From: Candidatus Omnitrophota bacterium
GTDB lineage: Bacteria > Omnitrophota > Gorgyraeia > 2-01-FULL-45-10
Direction: 5' to 3'
Length of the DNA stretch: 39,837 nucleotides
NCBI GenBank assembly: GCA_016935115.1
Contig: JAFGRN010000021.1
Location: 1-39,837 of the forward strand
Part shown: positions 12,685-37,395 of the stretch, in pieces
Layout: each line of letters begins with the position of its first letter
Position numbering within the stretch: the stretch's first letter is position 1
Program-made: the position numbers and the translations under genes
Notes under the pieces: generated by a model
Told to the model about the DNA's origin: nothing
The model's database searches: none
Seen by the model: the letters and a program-made list of their open reading frames with translations, nothing else

Positions 12685-13914
12685 CTAAGCCTGTATAAAC
12701 ACTTCCCTTGCCGCAAGGGCGGCGGCACCCAGTACGACGGCATTATCTCCGAGCGAACTCGGCACTATCCTGGCGGCATTTACCGGCTCCTCGAACGCAA
12801 ACTTCCTGACAGCCGCTTTCAGGGAATCGAGAAATATGTCTCCTGCCCTTTCCAGCCCGCCGCCTATGATGACGACTCCGGGATTGAAGAAGTTGATAAA
12901 ATAAGAGACCCTGACACCCAGGTTTCTGCCGGCTATCCGGACTATCTCCGCGGCAACCTTATCGCCCTTCTTCGCCGAGTCGATAACATTATCCATTGTT
13001 ATCGACTCCGCTTTACCTTTGGCCATCCCCAGGATTTCGGTGGCGACATTCTTCGCTATTGCCTTTTTGGCCTCGGCAACAACTCCCAGGTCGACTCCCC
13101 ACGGCCTCAGGAAAACAAATTCCTTCTGGTAGGACTTCTCATCCGCCTGCGGCGCCTCGAATACTATCTGGGTTTCTCCCGCGCAGCCGCTGGAACCTAT
13201 ATATACCTCCCCGTGCACTATCATGCCGCATCCCACGTCCGAATAGATGTACAGAAGATTCTCGGCATCCGCGGCGGGATTCAATGTCTTTTCGCCGAAG
13301 GCTCCGCATGAAGCGTCATTGCCTATAAATACCGGAATATTAAATTTCTGCCCTATCGCCGCCGTGACTTTAGGCAGGCTGACTTTAGTCCTGCCTCTAG
13401 CCGGGTCCGTATCACGGATCGTTCCCGAATAATAATCCACTATGCCCGAGACACCCATGCCTATACATCTGATATTCTTGCGGTCCACCTTCGACTTGTC
13501 GATAACATCGTTTATAACCGTAACTGCCGTGGGGATCACTTCCTCCATATTAACGGCGGGTCGCGGGACCTTTACCTGCGCCAGCGGTTTCACTTTAAGG
13601 TCCGATATGATGGCGGTGATCATGTCGGGGCCGACATCCACACCCACCACATAACCGCTCCTGGCATTAAGCTCGAGAAGCTCCGGGCGCCTGCCGCCCG
13701 AAGATATATCAAGGCCCACCTCGAGCACCATCTTCTTCTCGATATAATAATCGAGGTAATTAGTGACCGTTACTATATTGTATCCGAGCGTGCGGGATAT
13801 TTCGGCTTTGGATATGGGGCTGCGCCTGCGGATGATCTCAAGGATTGCAAGGTTCTTGCGCTCCCTATCCTGCAAAATATGGTATGTGAACATGCCTTCC
13901 GATCTTACAGCCAT
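12685..13914 (-). CDS. ROK-family regulator (NagC/XylR/Mlc-like) with N-terminal HTH
   Basis: 409 aa; NLAILEIIRRRSPISKAEISRTLGYNIVTVTNYLDYYIEKKMVLEVG (wHTH), VVGVDVGPDMITAIISDL, GNDASCGAFGE, NPGVVIIGGGL. Confidence 0.88.
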   Translation of the reverse strand: MAVRSEGMFTYHILQDRERKNLAILEIIRRRSPISKAEISRTLGYNIVTVTNYLDYYIEKKMVLEVGLDISSGGRRPELLELNARSGYVVGVDVGPDMITAIISDLKVKPLAQVKVPRPAVNMEEVIPTAVTVINDVIDKSKVDRKNIRCIGMGVSGIVDYYSGTIRDTDPARGRTKVSLPKVTAAIGQKFNIPVFIGNDASCGAFGEKTLNPAADAENLLYIYSDVGCGMIVHGEVYIGSSGCAGETQIVFEAPQADEKSYQKEFVFLRPWGVDLGVVAEAKKAIAKNVATEILGMAKGKAESITMDNVIDSAKKGDKVAAEIVRIAGRNLGVRVSYFINFFNPGVVIIGGGLERAGDIFLDSLKAAVRKFAFEEPVNAARIVPSSLGDNAVVLGAAALAAREVFIQA

Positions 13915-14681
13915 CTCGATCTTCTCGCTTTCGATACATATATGTCTTTCAGGAAGATGGCGGCTCCGGAACTATTGCCGACCGTAAGGCTGCCGAATTC
14001 AAATCTGATCGTTACTATGTTGACAAGGTCCACCGCTTTCTTTACAGGCCTGAAATTGACTTTGTAAAGCTGCCATTCATCGGTAAGCTTCGTGGACAGG
14101 TCATGCTCCATCCTGTAGGTCCTATGGTCAAGATCTTCTATCACTATGCCGAGACATTCTCCGCCGGACATCCCACGCGCCACAAATTTCAAGTCGAGCT
14201 TGCTTAAATCTATAGGCTCTTTTAAGTTAATGGTAAAATTTCCCCAACCACTGCCCCTGGAATTGGAGAGAAGGACGCAATCATCAGCTGTCCTCGATCC
14301 GGCTTTTGCGTCACCGGTAAACCTGGTATCTTTAATTATGTCATTGTTGGAAGTTATGCCTTTTATCAGAAAGACGCCCTTCTCCTTCCTATTATCAAAA
14401 TCTATCCTGCCTCCTTCGATCATTATCGAAGGCATCTCGCCCAATACCCGAATCTTGATATCAAATGTTATCTTTGTAAAAAAGGCTACGAGAGCCAGTA
14501 TCGAAGCGACGATAGCTACGGACCAGGCGAGCCTCTGGGTATTTTTCTTCCTGATATATGCTTTCTCCGACGTCCTGAGATAAGTGCGCGCTATCTCGTC
14601 GTTAAGGGCGGACTGAAGGCTCCTCGAGCCCGGTATCTTCTTCTTTTTTATTTCCCTGCTATCGCTTGTCATAGTTGGCAT
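13905..14681 (-). CDS. Membrane-anchored protein with a CIA30/jelly-roll-like carbohydrate-binding domain
   Basis: 258 aa; one TM (LAWSVAIVASILALVAFFTKITFDI), then a beta-rich domain ending GAAIFLKDIYVSKARRSRW, resembling YIDDI endings of sibling proteins in the locus. Confidence 0.5.
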   Translation of the reverse strand: MPTMTSDSREIKKKKIPGSRSLQSALNDEIARTYLRTSEKAYIRKKNTQRLAWSVAIVASILALVAFFTKITFDIKIRVLGEMPSIMIEGGRIDFDNRKEKGVFLIKGITSNNDIIKDTRFTGDAKAGSRTADDCVLLSNSRGSGWGNFTINLKEPIDLSKLDLKFVARGMSGGECLGIVIEDLDHRTYRMEHDLSTKLTDEWQLYKVNFRPVKKAVDLVNIVTIRFEFGSLTVGNSSGAAIFLKDIYVSKARRSRWL

Positions 14682-14698: not shown

Positions 14699-15583
14699 CT
14701 ATCCTTTCATCCCTGTAAGTTTTATACCTTCGACAAAGAACCTCTGGTTAAAGAGAAAGACTATAATAACGGGAACCATCGTTATAAGCGAACCCGCCAT
14801 AAGCAGCCCCCAATCCGGCTGCGCGTACTGGTAAAGCTCCTGGAAATACGCCAGGCCCACCGGCAGGGTCCTCTTCTCTATGGAGTTGGTAACCAGAAGC
14901 GGCCACATGAAGCTCACCCAGTTACCGAGCGAGACAAATATCGTAAGCGTCGCGAGCGCGGTGTGCGAAAGCGGCATTATTACCCGCCAGAATATGCCCC
15001 AGAGGCTGCATCCGTCGATCTTGGCGGCGTCTTCCAGGTCCCGTGGTATCGTCATGAAAAATTGCCTCAGCAGGAAGGTGCCGTATGCGGAGAATATCGC
15101 CGGTATTATCAGGGCCTTATACGTATCGATCCAGCCGAATGAGCGCATGAGCGCGAATACCGGTATCATCGTGACTGAGCCGGGTATCATCATGGTAGCC
15201 AGATAAGCAAAGAATATCTTATCGCGGCCGGGAAATCTCAGGCGGGCAAAAGCATACGCCGCGCTGGCGCTCGTTATAACCTGTCCGAAAGTAACGCATA
15301 CCACTACGAAGATGCTGTTCAGGTAGAAACGGGCAAAGGGCACCACCTTCCAGACATCAATATAATTTTTCCAATAGATGGGATCAGGCAGCCATTTGAC
15401 TTCGGTTATATTAAAAATAAATACTGAAGCATATGACTTCAAAGACGTTGAGAGCATCCAGAGAAACGGAAGTATCATCGTCACGCCGCCTATCACAAGA
15501 AGAGTATATATGGCGCATTTTTTTAATATGCTTCGCGTCCTCTTGCCCATTCCCTTCCTGACTTCATCCGCCGCGTATTCCAC
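14699..15583 (-). CDS. ABC sugar transporter permease, MalG type
   Basis: 294 aa; LPFLWMLSTSLKS, EAA-loop-like DLEDAAKIDGCSLWGIFWRVIMPLSHTALATL. Confidence 0.92.
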   Translation of the reverse strand: MEYAADEVRKGMGKRTRSILKKCAIYTLLVIGGVTMILPFLWMLSTSLKSYASVFIFNITEVKWLPDPIYWKNYIDVWKVVPFARFYLNSIFVVVCVTFGQVITSASAAYAFARLRFPGRDKIFFAYLATMMIPGSVTMIPVFALMRSFGWIDTYKALIIPAIFSAYGTFLLRQFFMTIPRDLEDAAKIDGCSLWGIFWRVIMPLSHTALATLTIFVSLGNWVSFMWPLLVTNSIEKRTLPVGLAYFQELYQYAQPDWGLLMAGSLITMVPVIIVFLFNQRFFVEGIKLTGMKG

Positions 15584-15604: not shown

Positions 15605-16546
15605 TCAATAATGCGAATACTGTACCAGCTTCCCGCCGAATCTCCAGTTAAATACGGTTGCCGTAAAGACTATGACAAATACGAACCATGCTATGGCCGC
15701 GGCATATCCGACATGCTGCCAGCTATAAAGATGATTATATATGAGATACTCCAGAGTCGTGGTCGACCTGTCCGGCCCTCCACCGGTCATTATATAGGCC
15801 TGCATGAAGCCTCCCTGAAAGCCGCCGATTACTGCCATGACGAATACGAAGAAGGTAGTGGGGCTTATCATGGGCCATGTAATATTCCAGAACTTGTTCC
15901 AGCTGCTCGCGCCGTCCATATCCGCCGCCTCGTAAAGTTCGCGGGGCACTCCCTGCAGGGCGGCCATGAAGAGTATCATGTTATATCCGCCGAGCATTAT
16001 CCATAGCCCCATAAGCATGAGCGAGGGTTTGGCCCAGGCTACTGAAGTAAGCCACGGTATCCTTTTAAGCGGAAGTGACAGAAGATCCCCGGCCCCGATG
16101 ATCATATTGTTGACCAGGCCAAAATCATAGTTATATATCCATGCCCATAGGAGGCATATAGCCACACCATTCGTTATCGTGGGAAGAAAGAAAACGGCTC
16201 TGAAAAAATTGATCAACCGTACCTTTTGGTTCATGATAAGCGCAAGCGCGAGAGAAGCCATTATCTCAACGGGGATTATCAGCATAAGAAATAAAGTATT
16301 GCCCACGCACTTCCAGAAGAGAGGGTCATTCGCGGTAAAGATGCCTGATTCCGTATGAAAACCGAGAAGGTCAATGAAGTTTTTAATCCCTATGAATTTG
16401 GCCGGGGAAAGCATATCCCATCTCACAAAACTCAATACAAGCGAAAGGGCAACAGGAACAAGGGTAAATATAAGAAATCCTATAAGATTCGGCAACAGAA
16501 AGAGATATCCCGCGATAGCCTCTTTTTCAGATCCCTTTATATCCAC
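15605..16546 (-). CDS. ABC sugar transporter permease, MalF type
   Basis: 313 aa; YLFLLPNLIGFLIFTLVPVALSLVLSF, PRELYEAADMDGASSWNKFWNITWPMISPTTFF. Confidence 0.92.
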   Translation of the reverse strand: MDIKGSEKEAIAGYLFLLPNLIGFLIFTLVPVALSLVLSFVRWDMLSPAKFIGIKNFIDLLGFHTESGIFTANDPLFWKCVGNTLFLMLIIPVEIMASLALALIMNQKVRLINFFRAVFFLPTITNGVAICLLWAWIYNYDFGLVNNMIIGAGDLLSLPLKRIPWLTSVAWAKPSLMLMGLWIMLGGYNMILFMAALQGVPRELYEAADMDGASSWNKFWNITWPMISPTTFFVFVMAVIGGFQGGFMQAYIMTGGGPDRSTTTLEYLIYNHLYSWQHVGYAAAIAWFVFVIVFTATVFNWRFGGKLVQYSHY

Positions 16547-16639: not shown

Positions 16640-18706
16640 TTATTCAAAAAAATCTTCAATTTTAAGCAGTTCTTCCGCATTCTTTGCAATCGGGTCATTA
16701 TGAAACCTCTTGCGGATCGCGCCGTCATTCAAGTAATTGTTAAGCGCTATAAAACTCATCGCCTGGTCAAGGCATAGATAGGCAGTAGCTGCCTTGCCTG
16801 TTGCGACAGTTATGGCATCATAAAATCCGTATTCACCGTAACATTCATACTTATCAAGCATCACCCTGAGATTCTCTATACTCTCTTTAGGCGTAAATTC
16901 GAGCGCAAGAAACGAAGCGTGAGGCGTAATAACACCATCTTTATATCCTTTTGTTCCGAGTACTTTTACTCCGTATTCCGAATACCCTCCCTCCGGCACG
17001 CTGGATGGAGACATGCCGAATGCCGGATATTTTAATTTTTCCAGGGCATACTTAACCTGTATTATCGCATGCGCCCGGTCATTCGCTCCAAGCCCTTTAG
17101 GGGCGAGAGATTTCTCTTCCATTATAAGCGTAGGCATCAATGCCTCGAACATGCTTCCTCCCCAGCTCGGCACAAACTTCGTGCCTTCATACTCATAGTA
17201 ACCGCCAAAGAACTTAAAACCGAGGCATGTCTTCTCTTTCCTGTCTATCGGCATCTGGGTCTGCCAATCCCACGAAGCGGGAAACGTGCGCGCCATCGCG
17301 AACCAATGCTCCTTGGGCACATCGCCCTTACCTATAGCAATATAACTTGCCGCCCTGGGCTCTGTATACAAAACACCATACTGATATTCGGAATAGTAAT
17401 TGATGTTGGTATAGTAGCCATGATACATATGCCCTTCTACCGGATCATAAAATAAAGAGAAGTCCATGGGGCCAAGCAGCTTGTCGCACTTCTGTCCCAA
17501 CTCTTCAGGAAACGCATTCTTCGCGACAATGATCCCGGCGGCAAGCCATCCGCTGTCGACAAATGATATAAAATTGCTCGTCCTCTGAAATATTGTCACA
17601 TCATAATAATTGTAAGGAAACCCTTTGTACTTCTCCAGGATATCAATCGAGTCAAGCGTAGCATCCATGCGCCTGACAGCATCCTCTCTGGTAATAAAAC
17701 CCAGATCATACGCCGAGACTACACACATAAGATATACGCCTATATTAGTTATATTGGTATAATCTCCGACGCGTGTCTCTTTCGATATAGTGCATGCCTC
17801 TCCGAACCGGATATTATCGATCGGAAGGGCATATTCCATATCCACCAGTTTGTCAAAATACTTCCAGGTATCCCTGGCCAGTTCCATCAGAAACTCACGG
17901 TCATCTTCTGGAAATATCTTCTTCACAAAAACTTCCTTCGGAAAGCCGTGCAGCCTGGCGGCGAGAAATCTGGCGAACTCCTCAGGGTTGGATTCTTTAT
18001 CGGTCTTCTTCTTCCTGTGAGGGACTATGTCAGTTATCTTTGGCCCGGGCATCCATGTCTTGATAAACGCGAAATCATCGAAATAGAGGGTGCCTGCCGA
18101 ATTATCGACGCGTTTTTTTTCGAAACTTATTACGAACTCCTTCAGATCATGCCAATCAAGTATGCCATTCATTACCGGAAGCGGTATGGAGATCTTCTGC
18201 CACTTTCCGGTGACACCTTTCACGACATAGCTGGCCTGTATGGATTCGTCTTTCCCATCGGCATCCTTCTGGGTCTTTTTGAATTCTATCTTAAAGAGAG
18301 TGGTAAAGCCCGATTTTTCATCGCCCTTTACCCAAAATTCAAAATGATCGTACGATGACGCGTCGAGATTACCAAGCGGTATCCAGAAACCGTTGGCAGA
18401 ATCGGGTGGTGATTTTACGTTGTATTCCAGCTTAAGAGCCGCGCCGCTGTCACCGCGACGGGTCACCTTGTCGATAGCCGCGGCGATTGATTGGCCCATA
18501 TCATCGGGATATTTCTCCCATGTTCCACATTCGCCGCCGAAATTATTTACCAGCTCTCCTTTGCTGAAATCGGCAATGGTTTCCGTGGGAATTCCCTGAG
18601 GAATACCGCGATTATTAGCCAGGCCGTCTTTTACCGAACATCCGGCGCCGGCGAGCATAGCCAACACCAGGACGGCGTATAATAGTACGGCTCTCTGTAT
18701 CTTCAC
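16640..18706 (-). CDS. Lipoprotein with N-terminal CIA30-like domain and glucoamylase-fold (PF10091/GH144-like) domain
   Basis: 688 aa; lipobox LAGAGC; GFWIPLGNLDASSYDHFEFWVKGDEKSGFTTLFKIEFKK; PF10091-like FVPSWGGSMFEALMP, GGYSEYGVKVLGTKGYKDGVITPHASFLALEF, YGEYGFYDAI. Confidence 0.8.
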   Translation of the reverse strand: MKIQRAVLLYAVLVLAMLAGAGCSVKDGLANNRGIPQGIPTETIADFSKGELVNNFGGECGTWEKYPDDMGQSIAAAIDKVTRRGDSGAALKLEYNVKSPPDSANGFWIPLGNLDASSYDHFEFWVKGDEKSGFTTLFKIEFKKTQKDADGKDESIQASYVVKGVTGKWQKISIPLPVMNGILDWHDLKEFVISFEKKRVDNSAGTLYFDDFAFIKTWMPGPKITDIVPHRKKKTDKESNPEEFARFLAARLHGFPKEVFVKKIFPEDDREFLMELARDTWKYFDKLVDMEYALPIDNIRFGEACTISKETRVGDYTNITNIGVYLMCVVSAYDLGFITREDAVRRMDATLDSIDILEKYKGFPYNYYDVTIFQRTSNFISFVDSGWLAAGIIVAKNAFPEELGQKCDKLLGPMDFSLFYDPVEGHMYHGYYTNINYYSEYQYGVLYTEPRAASYIAIGKGDVPKEHWFAMARTFPASWDWQTQMPIDRKEKTCLGFKFFGGYYEYEGTKFVPSWGGSMFEALMPTLIMEEKSLAPKGLGANDRAHAIIQVKYALEKLKYPAFGMSPSSVPEGGYSEYGVKVLGTKGYKDGVITPHASFLALEFTPKESIENLRVMLDKYECYGEYGFYDAITVATGKAATAYLCLDQAMSFIALNNYLNDGAIRKRFHNDPIAKNAEELLKIEDFFE

Positions 18707-18727: not shown

Positions 18728-18778
18728 GTCATTGCGAGGAGGCTACAACCTCACTCTTGCCGACGCGGCAATCTATTT
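18728..18778. repeat. GTCATTGCGAGGAG repeat, copy A (truncated)
   Basis: gtcattgcgaggaggctacaacctcactcttgccgacgcggcaatctattt; shares gtcattgc(g/a)aggaggc, acctcactcttgccgacg and gcaatctat with copy C. Confidence 0.85.
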
Positions 18779-21700
18779 CTTGAACGGACTCTTACTCAGA
18801 TCTCTCTCGACACTGAGGATTTTTATAGAGCCTCTCGGCTTCTTAAGGTCGGCGGGCAAAATCATCTTATTGCCGGCCAGAGAGGCTCCTACTATGCCTT
18901 CCATCGCCTGTCGCAGCATCCATCCGGCAGCGCCGGTATACCCATGCCAGATCATTCTGCCCGGCTCAAAGTTGGTCAGAACATCCGCGGCCTGTTTATT
19001 GGGCTGTCCTCCATAAATCTCGATCTCTCCGGCACTCATGTGGGCGAGTGGCGATATCTTTGACCATAGTCTATAGGCGACCAAACGGTATTCATCCGCC
19101 TTGGTCCGCTTGCCTTGTTTCTCAAATTCTTCGGCAAGAATACGCGCCGCCCTCACGAGCCACTGCACACCATGGCAATACATGCCGTTCTCACGTACAC
19201 CTTCCGGATATTTACTGCTGCGGCCAAGGTAGGGTTTTGTATCTTCCCTTAGAGCCGGCCATCCCAGAAGTATGGCATTATCTTTTTCAAGGATCTTAAG
19301 TGCCGTATCGAATATAACAGACCCTCGCTCGAAGTTGATCCCGGATATAACAGCCCATGACGCGGTCAGGGCGTCTATCTCCCAGACTCCGCTGCCGGCT
19401 ATCCCTATCTCTGTACCATCATCATGTATGGCACGCAGGTATCTGTCGTTTCGCCACGTCTTCTCTATGGCATCCTTCAAAGCATTCATTCTTTTCGCGT
19501 AATAGTCCCTGCGCGCGGCGCCGTCTTTTTTCTCTATGATGCCCAGCATCTCTTTCAATATATAGTAGAGGAAAAATCCCAGCCAGACGCTCTCGCCGCG
19601 GCCTTCAGAACCTATCTCGTCGAGCCCGTCATTCCAGTCTCCTGTCTGAATAAGAGGCAGGCCATTTTTGCCCATGCGGTCGTTAAGAAGAAGATCTATG
19701 GACCTCATACAATGCCGGTATACAGTATCCGACCTTGTTGTCCTGTGATATAGATGCCCCCATCCCTGCTTATTCTTCGGAAGCTTCGCAAACGGGAACT
19801 CCGACTCCATGTAAGGCGTCATCACATCCAGGATGGAGTAATCGCCAGTGATTCTTACATATTCAGCCACCCCCCATGACAACCATACAGGGTTATCAGA
19901 GGCATGCGAGCGGCATGAGAACGCGGCCCGCCCGTCTGTGAGGGTGAAAAACCAGTGGAATACATCCCCCTCCACGAACTGCTGGGAGGCAGCCAGTATG
20001 ACCTGCTTGCGGGCAAGCGCCGGGTCGACCCATGCCATGTTGATCGTATCCTGCAGCTGATCCCTGAAGCCGTAAGCGCCGCTTGTCTGGTAAAATCCCC
20101 GGCGAGCCCAGATCCTCTCAGCCAGAGCCTGATACTTTAGCCAGTTCTGGTAACGGTCAAACTCAGGCTGGTCCGTACGTACCTTTACCGTATCCATCAG
20201 GCCAAGCCACCACTTGCGCGTCTCTTTCAAAGACTCTTCGGCCCTGGTGACATCCCTGTACTTATTTATGATCCCGACGGCTTTCTTTTTATCGTCAGCC
20301 TGTCCGAGAATTATCACTATTTTGTTTTCGCCATGCGCTGGAATATCCATCGTTCCCAACATACCTGCTATCTGGGCCGTATCGGTAAGCTGCGCCGCAT
20401 CAGGCATCGCTTTCTCTACCATGTATGGCCGCGCCGGGCCGCGGCCGAGCCCAAAAAATCGTCCGCGGCGTGTTTCCGTGCCCTCTGCCAGTATCGACAT
20501 TGAGACAAATGCGGGCCCTGAGCGGAATATATTACGCGGATTCTCATAGAACAACGCGTTCAAATTCTTGCAATAACGCCCTCCCAGCGGGCCCGATCTC
20601 TCGGGCATGAAACCCAGCACCATCTGGAAATACGGGGCCACTCTCATCTGTCTTGGATAGTCGGCATTATTAACTACCTTTAATATATATACTCCTGTCG
20701 TATCTTCCGGAGGAACGAATACGGTCAATTCTGTTGAAACGGTACCCTTCGTCATCCGGAATATGGCGCTGCCATCCACGCTAAATTCAGATTCATATTT
20801 TGCGGATTTGTCATTGAGCGGATGGAATGTGGGAGAATACCACTCATCCCGGGAACTGTCATAGAGATAGATCGCTTCCGATGGTATTTCTCTGGTCACC
20901 GTGTCGGCCCAGTCCGGCGTAAGACGGTTCTGCTGCGAATTGCCGTTGCATGATGTATGGAGTCCGCGGTTAGTGACCATCACCGAATGTATCGAGTTTG
21001 ATACCGCATGGTCGATAGGACGCGGCGTATACGGAGTATGCACTATGAGGCTGTTGCCGTCCTTTGAAAATGTTGAGTAAGGCTTGGATGTACCGGCAGG
21101 GATTTCGCCATGGCCGATTAGAAGCGGGCGCTTCTTCTTCTCCGGAGCAGGTGTAGTGGGCGCCTTAGGCTTCAGGTGCTTCTTTACAAGGTCGAGAGCC
21201 TTTTCTTTATTCTTGGCAAAGCCTATCATGAGACGCACCTTAACGGATCCGCCTGCTGCTACAGGAGTATCTATCAGCAGACTGCCTATCGGGTCAAAAG
21301 TAGGATAGCCGGCAGTATCTATGGGGGGCAGGAAGTCCAGATTCTCCAATATCCGTGGCGACCAGATGCTCCTGGCGCGCCCGATAAAGTCCACCCGGGC
21401 GCTCTGAAATCCCTCGGCAGGCGCATCAGATGCGAGGATACCCATAGACTTGGTCGCCTTCTGCCATGAAAGTACAGTATTGAGGCCTCTCACATATTCC
21501 ATCTCCGGATAAAGCCTTGAGTACTGTGTATGGAACCTGTCATGTATGCCGCCATTCAATACCCATTCCAGATATGGAACTATCTTTAACCGGCGCTGCT
21601 TGCCAGACAGGTCCTCAAGTGTTATCTCCCATATCTCGGCCGTAGAATCCTGGTCGGGAAGGAGTATCTCTATGGTGGTCCTGACATCATTGGCCGCGTT

Positions 21701-24700
21701 CATTACCTTGATAGAATCGTCAGATCTCTTAACATACGAAGGCGCAAATTTCTCTGTCGGGAAGTTGCCTATTACCGGCCATGCGCGCGCTGCGCCTGCC
21801 GGAGGTTCGGCCGCGTCAACTACAAAGAGTATCCTGCCGCACGGGTCGATCGTATCATATGAGCGCCTCGTAACATCCGCTTCTTTGGCTATAACTTCGC
21901 TATAGGCGTCGCTATTCTCCTTCATCGTGATTTTATACTCCCTATTAGAGAGTTCATAACTCGCTATGCGGCGCCTGCGGGCGCGCCTGCCAAAAGCGCG
22001 AAGGCCGAATGATATGGCCGTACACGCAATTATTGCCGCGGCAATAACCGCCAAGAGCCAGATGACCGGCAGCGACTGTATCATGCCGGCCAGCCCCTTA
22101 TCCGCCGACGCATTCTGTATTGCCTGCGATGTGTTCCATACCTGTTCCCATTCTTTGCCGCGCGGGATATAAAATGGGATAAGAAGCGGCGCCCATGTAG
22201 TGAAACGCTTGACGCCTTCCGGTATGTACCGCTGGGCCGAAGCGGAGCCTATGAAACGGCCTATCCTCTCGTCGAGCGCATCCATTCCGATAAAACTGAG
22301 GTTAACCAAAGAAGCCACGCGCAGTCCCATGTGATCCATCCATATCAGAACGCGGAACCAGTCAAATGCAAGGATCCATATAAAGACCTGCATGCTCCAG
22401 GCTCTAAAACCCTCCGGAGTCATCGTTATATTGTTAAATATGGCAAATACCGTACGGATAGCGCCGTCCTGGTTATACCATGTCGGATCCGGCATCATTC
22501 GCAGGAATGTGAATATGATAGGCGACATCCAGAGGCCCCATCGGAGAACATATATCATGTGCTCAACTAGTTGGGCAAAACCTGCTCTCGAAAAGAAGAA
22601 TTTTATCGGCGTCGTATCCTTCTCGAAGAAAGACTGCAAAAACACCTTGTTTATCGCGAAGAGCCATGCCGCTATCGACCAGTTTATTACCCCGGCTAAA
22701 GATTCGGTGAATAGGAGCTTTACCCCGCCTGTGTAACTGCCCAGGTCTATGCGGCCCCACTTATTAACGAACGGATAGGTAATATAATCGGTAGCGGAAA
22801 GCCCGGAGCTTACATATAGCTTGAATTTCTCTATTACTACCGGTACCTGCCGCGAATCGAGATAGAATGCCAGAGCCGAGCCTACAAACGCTCCCAGGCA
22901 TGAGTCAACAAAGTAGAGCCTCCACGACTGGATCTTGCCGCGTTTCTGAATGGCATATATGACATCCCTTAGGAAACTTATGCCGCCAGAAGCGATAACG
23001 CCCATGCATAATCCGAATAGAATCCGGTCAGGCATCCCGTTTTTAAACATGTTGCAGGTGATCATTATGGCAAAGGCCAGGCCGGCTATTGCGCCCCTGG
23101 CGCACAGGGTCAGATCCTTATAGCTGTACTGCAGGCGCTCGAAGAACCTTATACTGCCGTCAAAACTCTCTATTATGGTCTTAAAGAACGGAAAGAGCGC
23201 CGCGCCGAGAAGTATACCCATTAAGATCGGTATGGCGCACATCACTTTCTGAGATACAGGAGCTGTAAGGGTCATGCTGAACACATAAAGTATGGCTACG
23301 AGAATACCGCTGTAGGCCATCCCTTTCTTTGTGCCTGCATTCACATGCTTCGCAATCGTCTCGGTGGACGGCGCGATCTTCTTTCCGGCATCCAGAAGCG
23401 CACCGGTAATAAGATAAACCTCGCCCCAGAGCCCGGCGAACGAAAGCATAGAAGTCAGAATACTCGACAGAGCCCTGAACCCCGCCGGCAGCTTGGCGAT
23501 AAATACGTTCGAACCGAAATTAGCAATGACCGGAGCCACAACCACTCCCAGCGATACCAGGAACATGTAGAGATGCGCCTTCCATCCCTTTATAACCCTG
23601 TCCTTTGTCGCCAGGCTTATGGCATTCATGGTGATCTCATTAAATACGATCATCACTATAGCGCGGCCTATCAATTCCACTATGTCGGGCCAGTAGACGC
23701 TCATGCCGAGCGTTAAACCATTGCCGAGCGCCCTCAGGGCCGCCACATTCTCCAAGAGAAGCAGCCAGTTAAACAGAAACGGCGCGCCCGCAATGATCAC
23801 TCCGGATATGGCGCTTATATGTTTATCCGAAGAAGCGAGTGATCTGGCGTTCGCGGCATGGTATACGACAAAGGCAAGAGCGGCTATGGTATTGCTGAAG
23901 GTAAGCATCTGTACCCATGATGAAGGAGGCTGCAGAAGTCCCATCCCGCTGGAGGCCGCCGCAAGCATCCCCGAGATTACCACATTCCAAAAGATTTCGG
24001 ACACCGTAAGATGCGCGCCGGTGATATTAAACTTCAGGAGCTCAGGTATCGCCACCCCGATGATTGCCACGCACAGAAAACCAAAAGTAAGCCCTGTTTC
24101 GAGCGGATTCATCGCTCCCGATGAATGGATATATAGCGCCGCGCCTATTATCGCAACAGCGACAATACCATATAGCAGGTCTCTGGGTAATTTTATTCCC
24201 GGAATCTTCGCGGAAAACTTACCGAGTAGAGCGGCAATTAACGCTAATATGATACCTAAGAAAAGAACAAGTCCTGCCTTAACGGCCGGCATATATTTCT
24301 GCAGGGGGCTGAGCTTATAAAAATTGAGGTCAAAATAGAGAGCCCCCTCAAGACGTTTATTGCTGTCCATAGGGCTTACCACAAACACGACTTCGGTGAG
24401 CTTACCTATCCTCTCCCAGTCAACCGATGCCTGTACATAACTCCATTCCGGACCGAGCCTCATAGGCACTGCCTGCACAGCCCTGTCCCCCTTCACTTCG
24501 AGCTTAACCGTAACTTCCTTCAATTCCACAGCGCTCTGAGGTTTGACACCCGCCCTTACTGCGTCAACCATGCCGGCCTGGAACTTTGAGGGATAATTCT
24601 TGGTCCAAAGACCTACTATCGCGCCCGGGAATATAGTATAGTCAAACTTCAGGACCTCTTTACCCGCTGACTCTTCCATCTCCGAATTCACGCCGGCTAT

Positions 24701-24985
24701 AGCGGGCCCCATATTGAACATGCCGTTCTCTTCTGCTTCCAGAATACTGAATCCGGTAGGGTCATCTATTATCTTACCGCGTTCTACGGCAGCGAAGGAG
24801 GAAGCGATCAGCATTGCCATAAATATAACCGTCATTGCGAGGAGACCGACATGTCCCGAGCGAAGCCGAGGGAAGGCCGACGCGGCAATCTTGCCTTTAG
24901 ATTGCTTCAAGCGCTTCGCGCTTTCGCAATGACGAGGATGGATTTTATCCCGCAGCAAGCGCAATGACAAAACAGAACTTCTCAT
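18773..24985 (-). CDS. Giant polytopic membrane protein with C-terminal GH94 (NdvB/cyclic glucan synthase C-terminal-like) module
   Basis: 2070 aa. Leader plus beta-rich N-terminal domain (~24310-24790), many TM helices (~22000-24300), R-rich RAFGRRARRRR, two GH94-type beta-sandwich regions, then QTSGAYGFRDQLQDTINMAWVDP, LIQTGDWNDGLDEIG, GVRENGMYCHGVQW, MIWHGYTGAAGWMLRQAMEGIVG. CAGGAG ribosome binding site before the 24985 ATG. Confidence 0.85.
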   Translation of the reverse strand: MRSSVLSLRLLRDKIHPRHCESAKRLKQSKGKIAASAFPRLRSGHVGLLAMTVIFMAMLIASSFAAVERGKIIDDPTGFSILEAEENGMFNMGPAIAGVNSEMEESAGKEVLKFDYTIFPGAIVGLWTKNYPSKFQAGMVDAVRAGVKPQSAVELKEVTVKLEVKGDRAVQAVPMRLGPEWSYVQASVDWERIGKLTEVVFVVSPMDSNKRLEGALYFDLNFYKLSPLQKYMPAVKAGLVLFLGIILALIAALLGKFSAKIPGIKLPRDLLYGIVAVAIIGAALYIHSSGAMNPLETGLTFGFLCVAIIGVAIPELLKFNITGAHLTVSEIFWNVVISGMLAAASSGMGLLQPPSSWVQMLTFSNTIAALAFVVYHAANARSLASSDKHISAISGVIIAGAPFLFNWLLLLENVAALRALGNGLTLGMSVYWPDIVELIGRAIVMIVFNEITMNAISLATKDRVIKGWKAHLYMFLVSLGVVVAPVIANFGSNVFIAKLPAGFRALSSILTSMLSFAGLWGEVYLITGALLDAGKKIAPSTETIAKHVNAGTKKGMAYSGILVAILYVFSMTLTAPVSQKVMCAIPILMGILLGAALFPFFKTIIESFDGSIRFFERLQYSYKDLTLCARGAIAGLAFAIMITCNMFKNGMPDRILFGLCMGVIASGGISFLRDVIYAIQKRGKIQSWRLYFVDSCLGAFVGSALAFYLDSRQVPVVIEKFKLYVSSGLSATDYITYPFVNKWGRIDLGSYTGGVKLLFTESLAGVINWSIAAWLFAINKVFLQSFFEKDTTPIKFFFSRAGFAQLVEHMIYVLRWGLWMSPIIFTFLRMMPDPTWYNQDGAIRTVFAIFNNITMTPEGFRAWSMQVFIWILAFDWFRVLIWMDHMGLRVASLVNLSFIGMDALDERIGRFIGSASAQRYIPEGVKRFTTWAPLLIPFYIPRGKEWEQVWNTSQAIQNASADKGLAGMIQSLPVIWLLAVIAAAIIACTAISFGLRAFGRRARRRRIASYELSNREYKITMKENSDAYSEVIAKEADVTRRSYDTIDPCGRILFVVDAAEPPAGAARAWPVIGNFPTEKFAPSYVKRSDDSIKVMNAANDVRTTIEILLPDQDSTAEIWEITLEDLSGKQRRLKIVPYLEWVLNGGIHDRFHTQYSRLYPEMEYVRGLNTVLSWQKATKSMGILASDAPAEGFQSARVDFIGRARSIWSPRILENLDFLPPIDTAGYPTFDPIGSLLIDTPVAAGGSVKVRLMIGFAKNKEKALDLVKKHLKPKAPTTPAPEKKKRPLLIGHGEIPAGTSKPYSTFSKDGNSLIVHTPYTPRPIDHAVSNSIHSVMVTNRGLHTSCNGNSQQNRLTPDWADTVTREIPSEAIYLYDSSRDEWYSPTFHPLNDKSAKYESEFSVDGSAIFRMTKGTVSTELTVFVPPEDTTGVYILKVVNNADYPRQMRVAPYFQMVLGFMPERSGPLGGRYCKNLNALFYENPRNIFRSGPAFVSMSILAEGTETRRGRFFGLGRGPARPYMVEKAMPDAAQLTDTAQIAGMLGTMDIPAHGENKIVIILGQADDKKKAVGIINKYRDVTRAEESLKETRKWWLGLMDTVKVRTDQPEFDRYQNWLKYQALAERIWARRGFYQTSGAYGFRDQLQDTINMAWVDPALARKQVILAASQQFVEGDVFHWFFTLTDGRAAFSCRSHASDNPVWLSWGVAEYVRITGDYSILDVMTPYMESEFPFAKLPKNKQGWGHLYHRTTRSDTVYRHCMRSIDLLLNDRMGKNGLPLIQTGDWNDGLDEIGSEGRGESVWLGFFLYYILKEMLGIIEKKDGAARRDYYAKRMNALKDAIEKTWRNDRYLRAIHDDGTEIGIAGSGVWEIDALTASWAVISGINFERGSVIFDTALKILEKDNAILLGWPALREDTKPYLGRSSKYPEGVRENGMYCHGVQWLVRAARILAEEFEKQGKRTKADEYRLVAYRLWSKISPLAHMSAGEIEIYGGQPNKQAADVLTNFEPGRMIWHGYTGAAGWMLRQAMEGIVGASLAGNKMILPADLKKPRGSIKILSVERDLSKSPFKK
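24831..24933. repeat. GTCATTGCGAGGAG repeat, copy B, inside the 5' end of the giant GH94 ORF
   Basis: Starts gtcattgcgaggag, ends tcgcaatgac (inverted ends), internal gccgacgcggcaatc...tttagattgc. Another gcaatgac lies at 24961-24968. Confidence 0.85.
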
Positions 24986-25015: not shown

Positions 25016-26806
25016 CTATTTCACTATGATCGTAATGTTTACGTCTTTCTGGATATCTTTCCTGACGCCTTTATTCGGAACGCGTACCAGCCCGAAATCA
25101 TCAACCTTAACCGACATCTTATAAACACCGGGCTCATTCGGTGCCTGCCAGGTCTTTGTCTCGGACTCATTATCATCGGTAAACTTTCCGTCTTCACTGG
25201 CCCAGTGCAGGAAAAGGAGATCTTTCTCCGTTTCTTCCCGCAGCATCTTGGGAAGCCTTGAGGGGTCTTCTTTATCCAGCTGGTATTCATTAAACCTGTC
25301 TTCATCGACAATGCCCTGAAGAGCCATCTGCAATTTCGCACCCTTGGGGGCCTCAATTGTAATAGTTCCGTCATCGGCAGTGGTCATCGGAGCCAGTTCC
25401 GACCCGATAGTTACAGTTACCTTAACATCTGTAGGCTGATATACATCCCATACTTTATACGTTTCGGTCGAATCACTTCCAAAGGTCGGGGCAGCATCAT
25501 TATCCTTAATATTCTTTATGTCATCGCGGATCATCTTGGAGGTATGCGCATACATGCTGTTGGGCTCTATCTTCTTCAGTTCATCTTCGGCCGTTTCATA
25601 ATTCTTGGCTGTATAATAAAGCATGGCTATAAGAACGCGCACATAGTCTCCCGCTCCCTGCCTGTAGTATTTGCTCATCAGCCCCCTGAGGTTCTCGATC
25701 GCTTTATCGCGCGGCAGGTTCTCATAATAGACCTTTGCGAGCATCTCAAATGCCTTATCGAACCAGACGCTGTTTTTATACTTCTCAAGAAAGCCTTCCA
25801 GCTGCGATATGGACCTGACATGATCTTTCATATTATAGTAGGTCATCGCCAGTTTATAGCTGCCGTAATCCGACGGCGGCAGGTCACCATACTTTTCTAT
25901 ATATGATTCATAATACTTCCTGGCATCCTTAAATTTTCCCGCATCATAATATTTCTCGCCGATCTCCATCACCTTGGCGGCCATCTCCTCTTTATTATAA
26001 TATGCGGGCGCGGCGGCGATATACTGCTCATAAAGCGCGGATGCTTCTTTCATGCTGTTCTGTAAAAAATGGTGGTCGGCTGATTTCATAATCTCATCTA
26101 CGACTTCCTGCGCTTCTTTCGGATCGACCTTTGAAGCATAGAGCAACCTGATCTTTATAGCCTGCTTATCAAGCCCCATATCGTTAAGGTCTTCTGAGAC
26201 CCTGGCAAGCTCTTCCCTGCAGATCTTCCGGTCATCATTATATTTGGAGATCTGGAGGGCAACGGCATCGAGCATGGCATCCGCTTTCTGGGGCTGCAGT
26301 TTCTCCCTGAATACTATAAATTTTAATACATTATTATCTATCACAAGGCTCTTGGATTGTGTCATGGCAGGAACTTTATCAAGGTGTTCTATTGCCTCGG
26401 CAAAGTACTTATCGTTTACCGACATATAGAGCCTGCCGGCTTCTATCTCATTACTCTTGGACAGACATGAAAGCTGGTCCAACCGGGCTTTCGCTATGGC
26501 ATAATTAAGATAGTCTTTATTATTAAATTCCGGCTTCTGCAAAGCGGCATTGCCTTCGGCAACAAACTTGTCATAATTTTCGAAGGCGCAACAGTCCGAG
26601 AAGGAATCGGCTATGAGTTTACGCAGAGCGGCGTCCTCCCTAAGGCCATCAATCTGCGAAATAATACTGTTAAATTTAGCTGGAGGAGAAACCCTTTTCT
26701 CGGCCCCTGTGACCGAAGCTTCTTCCGCCTGCGTAAACGCGGCAGCGGAATACGCTAAAAATATACAAACCAGAATCGCGGCCAATATCGTTTTCTGTCT
26801 ATCCAT
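25016..26806 (-). CDS. Secreted TPR-repeat protein with C-terminal Ig/PKD-like domain
   Basis: 596 aa; signal peptide AAILVCIFLAYSAAAFTQA; TPR-like units (EKYYDAGKFKDARKYYESYIEKYG); C-terminal WASEDGKFTDDNESETKTWQAPNEPGVYKMSVKVDD. Confidence 0.7.
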   Translation of the reverse strand: MDRQKTILAAILVCIFLAYSAAAFTQAEEASVTGAEKRVSPPAKFNSIISQIDGLREDAALRKLIADSFSDCCAFENYDKFVAEGNAALQKPEFNNKDYLNYAIAKARLDQLSCLSKSNEIEAGRLYMSVNDKYFAEAIEHLDKVPAMTQSKSLVIDNNVLKFIVFREKLQPQKADAMLDAVALQISKYNDDRKICREELARVSEDLNDMGLDKQAIKIRLLYASKVDPKEAQEVVDEIMKSADHHFLQNSMKEASALYEQYIAAAPAYYNKEEMAAKVMEIGEKYYDAGKFKDARKYYESYIEKYGDLPPSDYGSYKLAMTYYNMKDHVRSISQLEGFLEKYKNSVWFDKAFEMLAKVYYENLPRDKAIENLRGLMSKYYRQGAGDYVRVLIAMLYYTAKNYETAEDELKKIEPNSMYAHTSKMIRDDIKNIKDNDAAPTFGSDSTETYKVWDVYQPTDVKVTVTIGSELAPMTTADDGTITIEAPKGAKLQMALQGIVDEDRFNEYQLDKEDPSRLPKMLREETEKDLLFLHWASEDGKFTDDNESETKTWQAPNEPGVYKMSVKVDDFGLVRVPNKGVRKDIQKDVNITIIVK

Positions 26807-26812
26807 AATATA

Positions 26813-29080
26813 TCACCCTTTCTTATTGGTGAAGCCCGCTTTTATCAAAGCGTCTCTTATATGCCTGTTACTCATGAAATTTTTCCATATAAATCCCGTA
26901 CGAAAATTCTCAACAGGTATCAATATCATCCCCACGCCTATGCCATAGTAAGTATTGGCATACCAGCTAAGGTCGCGATTGAAAGAATCCTTGAGCCCGT
27001 ACTGGCCCCAGAGCCGGGGATATGTCACATACATGTATTTCAGCGCGGAGATGGAAAGATACGGCGTAAAGACTATTGATCCCGCCGGTCCGGTCGGAGA
27101 TACTGTGCCGTCATACTGCGGCTCTCCGCTGCCCATAGGAGGAACGCCGAAGTGCATGATATATCCGCCGGGCCGCGCCATGGATGTTATGCCCCAGCTG
27201 TTCGGGCCGTAACCCTTGAATTTATCGGAATTATCGATGCAGAACTGCCTGTTGGCCAGCGTGGCATTGGTAGAGTTTTCAAACCAGTCGACTCCCTTGC
27301 CGTCAACTAAATCGCGAAGGTCGAACCACAGATGGGCATATTGATATGAAAAAAGCGCGCCGTGCCATGTATAGATGAACGGCTTGCCGTTCTCGTAAGG
27401 GCCGGATTGCCTGTTCCAGGCGTAAAATACCTTGGGATCTACGGGATGCGTCGGGGAGCCTATCGCGAGAAGGCAGACAAGTATCGTCTCGTCCGTGTAA
27501 AAATCCCAGTATGACTCGAGGAATCCCCTCTCGGGGGACCAGCCCATGGAAAAATTATTAAACCATGGCCCTGGCTCCTGCTCCAGGAACTTTTCCCACT
27601 CAACGGCCCTATATATCTCCTCGGCTTTTTGCTTCACTTCTCCGCTGAAATACTCTCCGGCAGTTAGGGCGCCGCAGACGAGTATAGCAGTATCAACCGT
27701 GGATATTTCGCTCTTTCCGGCGCGTTTTGCCGTATGTTTATTGAGAAAATGATAGAAGAATCCAAAGCGTCCCTCGGCCAAAGATTCTTCCTCGCCGGCG
27801 CGAGGAAGGAATGTATTGAGCGCCAGAAGCGCCCTACGCCTTGCCTCAGCCTTGTCCAGCCAGCCTCTCTCAGTCCCTATACACAATGCGGCAAGACCTA
27901 ACCCGGTTGCCGCTATGCTGGCATCACCACCACCGGAGGTATCGGCAAAGAGGCCTGTCTCGGCATCCTGATGGTCATTGAAAAAATCGAATGCTTTCCT
28001 CTCTATCAGATTCAGAAATTCATCATCGGTTATCGGCTGAACACCGCAATCAATAAGTATCTCCGTGGCTTTATCATCGCCCCATATATTTGTGGCAACG
28101 GCCCTGACCTGGTAACTTAAAAGTTCTCTCGTATTATCAGGTTCCCAGTTTATCTTATGGACAGTCCCTTCCACATCGTAATCTGCGCCTATGGTCCTCC
28201 AGCTGTTACCGCGATCTACGGAGTATTCGAATCTGACACTCTCGAGGGAAGGATTCTGATAAAAACTCTCTGTTGTTATTTCGAGTATATTATCGCCTTT
28301 AAATGCGGGACAATGTTTGGCGTCGATGCCGTTAACCTTGAAAGATTCTTCATCCGGCGCTTTCAGGTCCTTGCCGTCCTCCCCCGCGGAAGAGAGAACC
28401 GACTCCGGCCTGTTCCCGAACATTATGTCATCTATATAGACTACGCTCTTCTTATTGCCGGCCTTGTTCTCGAATACAATAACCAGTTCCGACATCTTAG
28501 ACCAGTCCGTTATCTTGCTAAAAACCTTGAGCGGTATGACAACCTTACTCCATTCCTTGCTGACTATCCCGCCCCTGATATATGCGTTCACATAAACGTA
28601 GCTGTTAATATCCTGGCCATATGTAAAGATACCGTCGCCATTAACATCCTGGTGCAGTTCTACCTTGATATCGCTTATCTCCTGCGAACCCTTAATCCAA
28701 AAAGACAGGTAGTTATAATCTTTCAGGTCGAGTGATTCCGTAGAACCGCTCTTCCCCGGCACTTCTTTACCCAGCTTTATCCAATAAAATGTAAACTCTC
28801 CCAGCCTTTCCACATCATAATCGAGTGTTACCGCATAGCCGGTATTGCCTTTTACATAGCCTTCATCCTGTATCACTGCTGCATAGAGCGTTCCGGGCTT
28901 GTTTTCATCACCGCCTGAAAGGCCGCCGAGATTTGTGTATAGAGAACCTTCGTTATAATTCGCCAATGATATCGGCTTGATGAATTTAATGGGCTTCTGC
29001 GGAAGGTCCTGGGTAAAACCGGTATTACATATAGAGGTAGTGCAGATTATAAAAAAAATTGCGGCAAATGCTCTTCTCAT
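26813..29080 (-). CDS. Secreted glucoamylase-fold (PF10091-like) protein with N-terminal CIA30-like domain
   Basis: Start moved to MRRAFAAIFFIICTTSICNTGFTQ (signal peptide, AAGGA upstream). DYNYLSFWIKGSQEISDIKVELHQDVNGDGIFTYGQD; catalytic-fold region NATLANRQFCIDNSDKFKGYGPNSWGITSMARPGGYIMHFGVPP. Confidence 0.8.
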   Translation of the reverse strand: MRRAFAAIFFIICTTSICNTGFTQDLPQKPIKFIKPISLANYNEGSLYTNLGGLSGGDENKPGTLYAAVIQDEGYVKGNTGYAVTLDYDVERLGEFTFYWIKLGKEVPGKSGSTESLDLKDYNYLSFWIKGSQEISDIKVELHQDVNGDGIFTYGQDINSYVYVNAYIRGGIVSKEWSKVVIPLKVFSKITDWSKMSELVIVFENKAGNKKSVVYIDDIMFGNRPESVLSSAGEDGKDLKAPDEESFKVNGIDAKHCPAFKGDNILEITTESFYQNPSLESVRFEYSVDRGNSWRTIGADYDVEGTVHKINWEPDNTRELLSYQVRAVATNIWGDDKATEILIDCGVQPITDDEFLNLIERKAFDFFNDHQDAETGLFADTSGGGDASIAATGLGLAALCIGTERGWLDKAEARRRALLALNTFLPRAGEEESLAEGRFGFFYHFLNKHTAKRAGKSEISTVDTAILVCGALTAGEYFSGEVKQKAEEIYRAVEWEKFLEQEPGPWFNNFSMGWSPERGFLESYWDFYTDETILVCLLAIGSPTHPVDPKVFYAWNRQSGPYENGKPFIYTWHGALFSYQYAHLWFDLRDLVDGKGVDWFENSTNATLANRQFCIDNSDKFKGYGPNSWGITSMARPGGYIMHFGVPPMGSGEPQYDGTVSPTGPAGSIVFTPYLSISALKYMYVTYPRLWGQYGLKDSFNRDLSWYANTYYGIGVGMILIPVENFRTGFIWKNFMSNRHIRDALIKAGFTNKKG

Positions 29081-29143
29081 GGCCGGAATCCTTATTCGGA
29101 CGGGATGGGCGCAAATCAATGCGCCCATCCGTCCATACTGATC

Positions 29144-31435: not shown

Positions 31436-32107
31436 TTACTCTTCCTTCAGTACATATCCCCTGCCGCGTACGGTGTGGATAAGCTTAACTTTAGACTCAA
31501 AATCTATCTTATTGCGCAGGTAATTTATATAAACATCTATGACGTTCGTAAACGTGTCAAAATCTATGTCCCAGACATGCTCGGATATCATGGTGCGGGT
31601 TACTATGGCGCCTTCATTACGCATGAGGTATTCGAGAAGAGAATATTCTTTTGTGGTCAATTCTATCTCTTTGCCCGCGCGCGTAACCTTATGCGTCGGA
31701 AGATCAATCTCGAGATCCGCCACCTTAAGCTTGGTCGGCGCTTTCGCGTCCTTCTTCCTTAATATAGCGCGTATCCTGGCCAGAAGCTCCTCAAAAGCGA
31801 AAGGTTTCGTAAGATAATCATCGGCTCCCGCGTCCAGGCCCTTTACCTTGTCTTTTACGGTATCCTTCGCGGTCAACATGATCACAGGCGCTATTACTTT
31901 CTCTTCTTTGAGTTTTTTGCAAAGCTTGAGCCCGTCTATCTTGGGTATCATAAGGTCAAGCAGGATCAGGTCATAGTCATTGGTCTTTGCCATAAATAGG
32001 CCCTGCTCGCCGTCATAAGCCACATCGGCGGCATAGCCTTCTTCTTTAAGGCCGCGCCTTATGAAATCCGCTATCTTCTTTTCGTCTTCTACTATAAGTA
32101 TCCTCAT
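31436..32107 (-). CDS. OmpR/PhoB-family response regulator
   Basis: 223 aa; MRILIVEDEKKIADFIRRGLKEEGY, LILLDLMIPKIDG, wHTH EYSLLEYLMRNEGAIVTRTMISEHVW, VRGRGYVLKEE. Confidence 0.95.
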   Translation of the reverse strand: MRILIVEDEKKIADFIRRGLKEEGYAADVAYDGEQGLFMAKTNDYDLILLDLMIPKIDGLKLCKKLKEEKVIAPVIMLTAKDTVKDKVKGLDAGADDYLTKPFAFEELLARIRAILRKKDAKAPTKLKVADLEIDLPTHKVTRAGKEIELTTKEYSLLEYLMRNEGAIVTRTMISEHVWDIDFDTFTNVIDVYINYLRNKIDFESKVKLIHTVRGRGYVLKEE

Positions 32108-34498: not shown

Positions 34499-35815
34499 CT
34501 ACTGCCTCTTAAGGAGATTATTCACCTTGTTGATAAACGCGGCGACCGCGGCCCATGCTGTCTTCTTATTGCTGAACAACAGGTCAAGCTCGGGGATTAT
34601 ATACATCTCCTTCGCTTCCCTCCAGGCAGGAGAGAACGGGTCATATATAACATACTTCATCGCGCGATCGAGCATCTTCTTATTATAAGGCACCTTGCCG
34701 TCATCAGCCCAGTACTTTGACATTGCTATCGACATCATCGCGGGTTGAGCAAGCCCTGTCTCGGCGAGCTTCATCTGGGCATTCTTCCCGGAAAGCGCTT
34801 TCACGACTTCGAACGCCTCTTTCGGATATTTCGTCTCTTTTAATACGCAGTAACCCGAACCGCCTGTACCGAAACCGCGCTTGCCGGAAGGGCCTTTTGG
34901 GAACATCACCACATCCCATTCAAAGTCCTGTATCTTACGCAGGCCGGGCGTTTCCCAGATGCCGGAAGAGAACATGGCAAGCCTGCCCGTCATAAACATG
35001 CCCTGTACTCCCATAGCAAGATTTGTCATGGTAGTGGCGGAAGGCTGGACCTTATGCTTATTTATGAGGTCCGAATAGAACTGCAGGCCTTCTACGGAAT
35101 TTTTGGTATTTAAAATACATTCCGTGGGATTCTTCACATTATCGACAAGGCTGCCGCCGAAAGCATAGACAAAGTTCATCCAGGCCCAGGCATAAAAACC
35201 GTACTGGGTAACGCGCCCATCCTTATCGGACTTTGTCAGCTTCTGGGCTTTTTCCAGCATATCATTAATATCCCATTCATCAGTCGGATATGGGATCTTC
35301 GCTTCATCGAACATCTTTTTATTATAATAGACACATGCAAATGGCGCGGTGTCGCGCGGCACAGCATACAGCTTGCCGTCAACAGTAAAGCGGTCTATGA
35401 TCTGCGGATAAAAATCTTTAAGGTTAAATTCCGGATCCGCCGTAACATACGGTGTAAGGTCGAGAAGGACATTCTTAGACTGGAATGTCACAAAGAGGTC
35501 TACTTCGGTGCATATGATATCGGGGGCGGATCTTCCCGCTATACGGGTTAGGAGTTTATCTACATAACCGCGGTAAGGAGTATGCTCCAGTTTTACCAGT
35601 ATATCCGGATGGGACTTCTTCCATTCATCGATTATTCCGGCGATTATATTGACTTCGTCTGGAGCGCCCCAAAATGCTACTTTGATCTCCGTTGGCAACC
35701 CGTTATTGGGAAAGGCTTTCTGCGCTTCGGATTGGCCGGGCGCGCATCCGGCAGCATACAATGATAAAAAAAGAAAAAATGTTAAAAATATCGCGGAGGC
35801 CCTGCCGGACTTCAT
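34499..35815 (-). CDS. ABC sugar transporter extracellular solute-binding lipoprotein
   Basis: 438 aa; lipobox LYAAGC; KVAFWGAPDEVNIIAGIIDEWKKSHPDILVKLEHTPYRGYVDKLLTRIAGRSAPDII, GKLYAVPRDTAPFACVYYNKKMFDEA. Confidence 0.93.
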   Translation of the reverse strand: MKSGRASAIFLTFFLFLSLYAAGCAPGQSEAQKAFPNNGLPTEIKVAFWGAPDEVNIIAGIIDEWKKSHPDILVKLEHTPYRGYVDKLLTRIAGRSAPDIICTEVDLFVTFQSKNVLLDLTPYVTADPEFNLKDFYPQIIDRFTVDGKLYAVPRDTAPFACVYYNKKMFDEAKIPYPTDEWDINDMLEKAQKLTKSDKDGRVTQYGFYAWAWMNFVYAFGGSLVDNVKNPTECILNTKNSVEGLQFYSDLINKHKVQPSATTMTNLAMGVQGMFMTGRLAMFSSGIWETPGLRKIQDFEWDVVMFPKGPSGKRGFGTGGSGYCVLKETKYPKEAFEVVKALSGKNAQMKLAETGLAQPAMMSIAMSKYWADDGKVPYNKKMLDRAMKYVIYDPFSPAWREAKEMYIIPELDLLFSNKKTAWAAVAAFINKVNNLLKRQ

Positions 35816-37349: not shown

Positions 37350-37395
37350 ATTGGTTATATTATAACAATATTATCATAAGGAAGGTTTTTGTCAA
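37350..37395 (-). promoter_or_regulatory. Possible sigma70-type promoter before the outer-membrane protein gene
   Basis: Minus strand TTGACA (37390-37395) followed by AT-rich TGATAATATTGTTATAATAT; -10 choice and spacing ambiguous. Confidence 0.35.

Follow-up and report, generated by a model that had tools for sequence, protein, structure and literature searches.

Cyclic glucan synthases (CGS) combine a GT84 glycosyltransferase, a GH189 cyclase and a GH94 module in one chain; in Cgs all soluble domains are cytoplasmic, and a 166-residue Rossmann-like insert lies between the GP1 and GP2 domains (PMC10901819). Other points of comparison are the soluble enzymes SOGP (1,2-β-oligoglucan phosphorylase; Listeria Lin1839, LpSOGP) and cellobiose phosphorylase (GH94), and OpgG and OpgH of periplasmic glucan synthesis, linked to a β-1,2-glucan backbone, with β-1,2-glucanases among the members of the OpgG family (PMC10514313). 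Here we describe an open reading frame (ORF) of 2070 aa, at 18773-24985 on the reverse strand of a 39,837-nt contig (JAFGRN010000021.1, which in its full length we call the window) from a Candidatus Omnitrophota bacterium, that joins a large transmembrane (TM) domain without a named family to a CGS-type GH94 module and is genetically linked to periplasmic β-1,2-glucan enzymes. Translation, Pfam matches and fused orthologues define its layout as a signal and N-terminal β domain, the TM domain, GP1, GP2 and the GH94 catalytic domain; the frame is complete, and the first-pass annotation, made from the DNA letters alone, had its coordinates, strand and length exactly. We suggest, with a probability of about 0.5, that this giant protein is an inner-membrane β-1,2-glucan phosphorylase with a cytoplasmic GH94 module and a periplasmic glucan enzyme as partner, its TM domain probably passing glucan.

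In particular, the C-terminal half, which had been likened to Cgs from the outset, aligns to Agrobacterium Cgs over both supersandwiches and the GH94 domain. A PDB sequence search returned Agrobacterium Cgs as the best solved-structure match (E 3e-110), with residues ~1012-1270 aligned to Cgs GP1 and 1303-2047 to GP2-GP3; cellobiose phosphorylase, which shares the catalytic fold and motifs but is soluble and has one supersandwich, matched more weakly (E 2e-34). The GP1-like supersandwich 1 comprises residues 1008-1270 (21176-21964; hhalign to CGS GP1, Prob 99.8, E 2e-30), the GP2-like supersandwich 2 residues 1303-1580 (20246-21079; PF06165 and the Cgs alignment) and the GH94 catalytic domain residues 1592-2033 (18887-20212; PF17167, E 2e-65), all on the reverse strand, and PF06165 is matched in two stretches (E 2e-57). 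The GDWNDG, GFRDQLQD, VRENG..H and YTG motifs are conserved across 74 aligned GH94 domains, and the phosphate-site residues among them are those usually assigned in the family. Domain content (PF17167 with supersandwich) and catalytic and phosphate-site motifs alike place the protein in GH94. The putative general acid Asp1786 of GDWNDG (19628-19630, reverse strand), invariant in 74/74 of these domains, aligns with D2528 of Agrobacterium Cgs (residue named in PMC11842490). Judged by its motifs the GH94 active site is intact, and phosphorolysis of β-1,2-glucan is therefore to be expected; the two supersandwiches and GH94 domain would act as a CGS-type module that splits β-1,2-glucan with phosphate to give glucose 1-phosphate.

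The resemblance to CGS is confined to this module, in which supersandwich 1, supersandwich 2 and GH94 follow in the same order at ~33% identity and with an equivalent catalytic Asp. The giant protein differs from CGS in having no GT84, no NTD (N-terminal domain) and no Rossmann-like insert between GP1 and GP2, in carrying ~18 TM helices, without detectable homology to the six of CGS, and in possessing an N-terminal extracellular domain; with GT84 and an in-chain cyclase both looked for and absent, it is by domain content not a CGS. It shares its expected reaction with SOGP, which is soluble, has other N-terminal domains (SOGP_N) and does not figure among its PDB sequence matches; Pfam found neither SOGP_N nor SOGP_2nd in the giant protein; both occur in the neighbour of the Lentisphaera marina TM protein (L104) described below.

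The substrate assignment draws on the neighbouring genes as well. Directly downstream of the giant gene lies a gene (16640-18706, reverse strand) for a lipoprotein with a CBM11-like domain and a CGS cyclase (GH189-like) domain, the nearest in the locus to the cyclase of CGS (Prob 100, E 1e-51 by hhalign), for which the TiCGS cyclization domain is the best PDB match (8wy1, E 3e-43); the cyclase that CGS carries in chain thus has its counterpart here in a separate protein. This partner keeps the clan general acid as E449 (14/14). Of the TiCGS glutamates E1356 and E1442, the second aligns to Pro/Ser; on these residues the partner is GH189-like and not a GH189 member, and since the second Glu is missing it may be a hydrolase. 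In Planctomycetes, Verrucomicrobia and Desulfopila the giant gene is followed by one for a 700-aa secreted protein, in several members a lipoprotein, whose profile matches EeSGL1 (8xuj, E 2e-8) and more weakly CGS cyclase (GH-S clan); EeSGL1 is a β-1,2-glucanase (PMC12102758). In seven Desulfobacterota/Lentisphaerae-type loci opgG is adjacent or nearby, in some together with opgH (recognized by eye and by blastp between loci), both of them encoding proteins unrelated to the giant protein, and Methylocapsa has three opgG-family genes, no CGS having been found there. At these partner loci the next gene would supply a periplasmic enzyme that cuts or transfers β-1,2-glucan, namely a GH189-like lipoprotein in the window and a GH-S-clan lipoprotein or OpgG elsewhere. 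Two further Omnitrophota have partial MdoG-family matches in open frames of 3015 and 2714 aa (L125, G007:C163; L126, G029:C72).

In Lentisphaera marina (L104) the TM protein ends after supersandwich 1, without GH94, and an SOGP homologue encoded beside it (Pfam SOGP_N, 8e-67; no signal-like N-terminal stretch by inspection) takes the place of the GH94 half. Because the downstream gene overlaps the stop codon, the split is not a frameshift. The SOGP homologue, the GH94-less TM protein, a GH-S-clan protein and a PF10091 protein stand in a row (L104, 6143-16670), so that here the system occurs naturally in split form; we regard this cluster as the best single argument that both halves act together on β-1,2-glucan. 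Phosphorylase identity and a β-1,2-glucan substrate are well supported, the latter because of the gene neighbours and the similarity to CGS, which together narrow to β-1,2-glucan what had first been proposed as glucan in general.

The TM domain itself (residues 229-1005; 21971-24301, reverse strand; ~18 TM helices) is modelled confidently by AlphaFold (pLDDT 88.7, pTM 0.85). Within residues 1-1000 of the giant protein Pfam gave no match, NCBIfam gave none anywhere in it, and no family of either database reached its cut-off with any of 55 TM-domain members. The TM-domain profile matched no PDB chain by sequence, and Foldseek with the TM-only model found nothing below E 0.09 in the PDB, with TM-scores under 0.2, on which we rejected a known transporter or GT-C fold; since the fold search covered PDB structures, the statement is one of no solved relative and not of a new fold in an absolute sense. 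We rejected a hidden GT84 or GT2 domain in the N-terminal half on the strength of Pfam, hhalign and a motif search that found no QxxRW, DxD or [TE]ED string, in keeping with the absence of these glycosyltransferases reported in the first-pass annotation, and GH189 was likewise not found there. The 55-sequence profile did not match eight cyclic glucan synthases; a single 38-column hhalign match to the CGS TM region (Prob 0.1) was not counted as homology. The invariant residues of the domain are concentrated in loops predicted to be periplasmic (WYNQDG, KWG) and in its final helices (RWGLW, WMDHMGLR, TWAPLLIPFYLP), an arrangement that would suit an active site as well as a path for translocation.

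We hypothesize that the TM domain translocates glucan; with polar and aromatic motifs conserved in its helices and in the loops predicted to be periplasmic, it most likely binds chain ends or passes them across the membrane to the phosphorylase. A stronger form of this idea, in which the domain has a new membrane fold and carries a whole β-glucan chain across the inner membrane, pulled by processive phosphorolysis on the cytoplasmic side or pushed out by reverse phosphorolysis, seems rather unlikely; if true, it would make the protein a glucan translocase that draws its power from a phosphorylase and not from ATP or a nucleotide-sugar polymerase. It seems unlikely, too, that the TM domain has an enzymatic activity of its own, such as that of a lipid-linked-sugar glycosyltransferase or a transglycosylase, by which it builds or modifies a glucan, with GH94 only setting chain length, as in CGS, in a glucan synthase free of GT84. 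Such a synthase would account for the invariant polar and charged residues of the membrane domain and periplasmic loops and for the fact that the C-terminal module and the adjacent cyclase-like gene reproduce the parts of CGS except GT84, and neither CGS nor OpgG was found in the window genome (82% complete) or in three same-genus relatives. However, no glycosyltransferase fold or motif was detected by sequence or fold search, and the ABC importer and secreted glucanase-type proteins of the window look catabolic. Moreover, the giant protein is not merely a CGS substitute, since Sinimarinibacterium and Desulfopila have a full-length, genuine CGS besides it. On our preferred reading as a phosphorylase, the lack of CGS and OpgG in the window genome and its near relatives would mean that the β-1,2-glucan most likely comes from elsewhere, or is made by an unknown route.

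Diverged TM-domain copies, without detected GH94 and more glycine/alanine-rich than the fused domain, occur inside open frames of 1,474-25,048 aa in other Omnitrophota (L144, L146, L147, L148, L143); giant proteins of this phylum have been reported as of unknown function (PMC10066038). A still longer frame of 26,995 aa containing the TM domain (G104) was set aside as an artefact of a masked run of 8,000 N.

Which side of the membrane the GH94 module faces was considered from loop charges. In four separate taxonomic groups these follow the positive-inside rule, alternating from TM1, ahead of which the N-terminal domain lies outside, as far as TM17, which supports a β domain that faces the periplasm. 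The segment after the last helix, RAFGRRARRRR in the window (21968-22000, reverse strand), has a net charge of +3.5 to +5.1 in all four groups, and segment 944-975 ahead of that helix is net negative. Because this strong positive cluster is conserved we favour, and think probable, a cytoplasmic GH94 module. The opposite placement, with GH94 in the periplasm, where it would bind or trim glucan, perhaps as a scaffold, and with the TM domain merely an anchor or sensor, draws on the ~18 long helices of the AlphaFold model, which with an outside N terminus put the C terminus, and GH94 with it, outside by plain parity, and on partner enzymes that are periplasmic lipoproteins or OpgG. We consider it quite unlikely, given the charges on either side of the last helix, the loss of glucose 1-phosphate that a periplasmic phosphorylase would entail, the cytoplasmic location of all Cgs soluble domains (PMC10901819) and the split Lentisphaera SOGP without a signal peptide. 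The parity problem would persist unless the conserved segment 923-943, helical in one half and extended in the other, crosses the membrane too, as a half-helix. Hence, of the topology first proposed, the outside N-terminal domain and the positive cluster stand, the latter now as a conserved feature, and the helix count leaves the cytoplasmic GH94 likely only.

The fusion, first taken as a one-off, is an old, widespread and unnamed family. A scan of public genomes found 109 relatives, in Omnitrophota, Auribacterota, Elusimicrobia, Planctomycetes (Aquisphaera, Paludisphaera), Verrucomicrobia, Lentisphaerae, Desulfobacterota, Acidobacteria and Proteobacteria (Methylocapsa acidiphila, Sinimarinibacterium), and nearly all intact ones keep the order TM-supersandwich-supersandwich-GH94 in a single ORF of 1,640-2,500 aa. 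All three same-genus relatives carry the full-length fused ORF (67-70% identity in the N-terminal half), and 41/285 sampled Omnitrophota genomes gave a match, which in a few is no more than remote. In the GH94 tree, rooted by three outgroup sequences only, 63 TM-fused domains are monophyletic (support 1.0) and stand apart from the CGS clade (0.99). It is very improbable that an ordinary soluble-type GH94 was fused by accident, or by faulty assembly, to an unrelated membrane protein: the halves do lie in separate frames at some loci (L049, L086, and G048 in L044), but they co-diverge (Spearman rho 0.93 for pairwise identities of the two halves over 52 loci), and chance or artefact is excluded because the fused order recurs in dozens of independent contigs, annotated plasmids among them, from several phyla. 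In Isosphaeraceae (L129, L132) the giant gene makes up a two-gene unit with that of its glucanase-clan partner on the large plasmids pPALBO1 and pOJF2_1, with both genes annotated 'hypothetical protein', which is also the RefSeq label of the planctomycete members. The searchable literature yielded no characterized homologue of this architecture and no membrane GH94 fusion.

At the N terminus, the stretch initially read as a leader proved, over its first 52 residues, to be no ordinary one: residues ~17-52 derive from a 105-bp dispersed repeat inserted in frame (24830-24934, reverse strand), with inverted-repeat ends (cgtcattgcga / tcgcaatgacg) and similar stretches at ~25 places in the window genome. 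Same-genus orthologues do not have it, and it lengthens the protein by ~35 residues, after the region of the start codon and ahead of the signal peptide core. The insert is reminiscent of the protein-coding palindromic elements of Rickettsia. The hydrophobic core of the signal peptide, VIFMAMLIASSFAA, follows at residues 53-66 (24788-24829, reverse strand), and orthologues have ordinary signal peptides. The extracellular-type β domain of ~160 residues (67-228; 24302-24787, reverse strand) occurs in 1-4 copies in relatives and as a separate gene just upstream in a few contigs; Pfam gave no match and no link to a CBM family was established. A relationship to the CBM11-like proteins of the locus found no support in a profile comparison (Prob 1.6).

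The order of the giant gene and its downstream partner is conserved in genus and family. Upstream lie genes for a secreted TPR protein (25016-26806), itself a neighbour conserved in genus and family, and for a secreted PF10091 (glucoamylase/GH144-type) protein (26813-29128), followed by those for a soluble 790-aa GH94 protein (32107-34479; PF17167, E 7e-109), an ABC sugar-binding lipoprotein (34499-35815; PF01547) and a second secreted PF10091 protein (37392-38654); two ABC sugar permeases (14699-15583 and 15605-16546; PF00528) are encoded on the other side, all of these on the reverse strand. The soluble GH94 protein was rejected as nearest kin of the giant's GH94 domain, being about as distant as CGS (31% identity). 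In the three same-genus relatives, which retain the giant gene, its gene was not found between the sugar-binding-protein and regulator genes. Beside the permeases, throughout genus and family, stands a gene for a 258-aa single-TM protein without a Pfam match (13905-14681 in the window).

As an ABC sugar importer is encoded in the locus too, we suggest that in the window genome the system serves, on balance, probably to take up and phosphorolyse β-1,2-glucan; where OpgG or OpgH is the neighbour, in other phyla, it would more likely trim or recycle periplasmic glucans of the cell itself. Apart from helix parity, several observations weigh against an inner-membrane phosphorylase that passes glucan. 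We infer the linkage from neighbours and CGS similarity and not from subsite residues; translocation finds no homology support, the TM domain matching nothing in Pfam, NCBIfam or the PDB; with the importer at hand, a further route of transport could be superfluous; and alphaproteobacterial members have no obvious adjoining glucan gene.

Finally, a conserved membrane domain of ~780 residues, present in many phyla and in cultured bacteria, carries no family name, and no relative with a solved structure could be detected. That this domain is fused to a phosphorylase suggests a way of importing, trimming or recycling β-1,2-glucans without a nucleotide-driven step, and the TM-GH94 protein is a candidate for the unexplained turnover of osmoregulated periplasmic glucans. 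Cultured hosts, namely Methylocapsa acidiphila, Paludisphaera, Desulfopila, Lentisphaera and Sinimarinibacterium, make the family testable.

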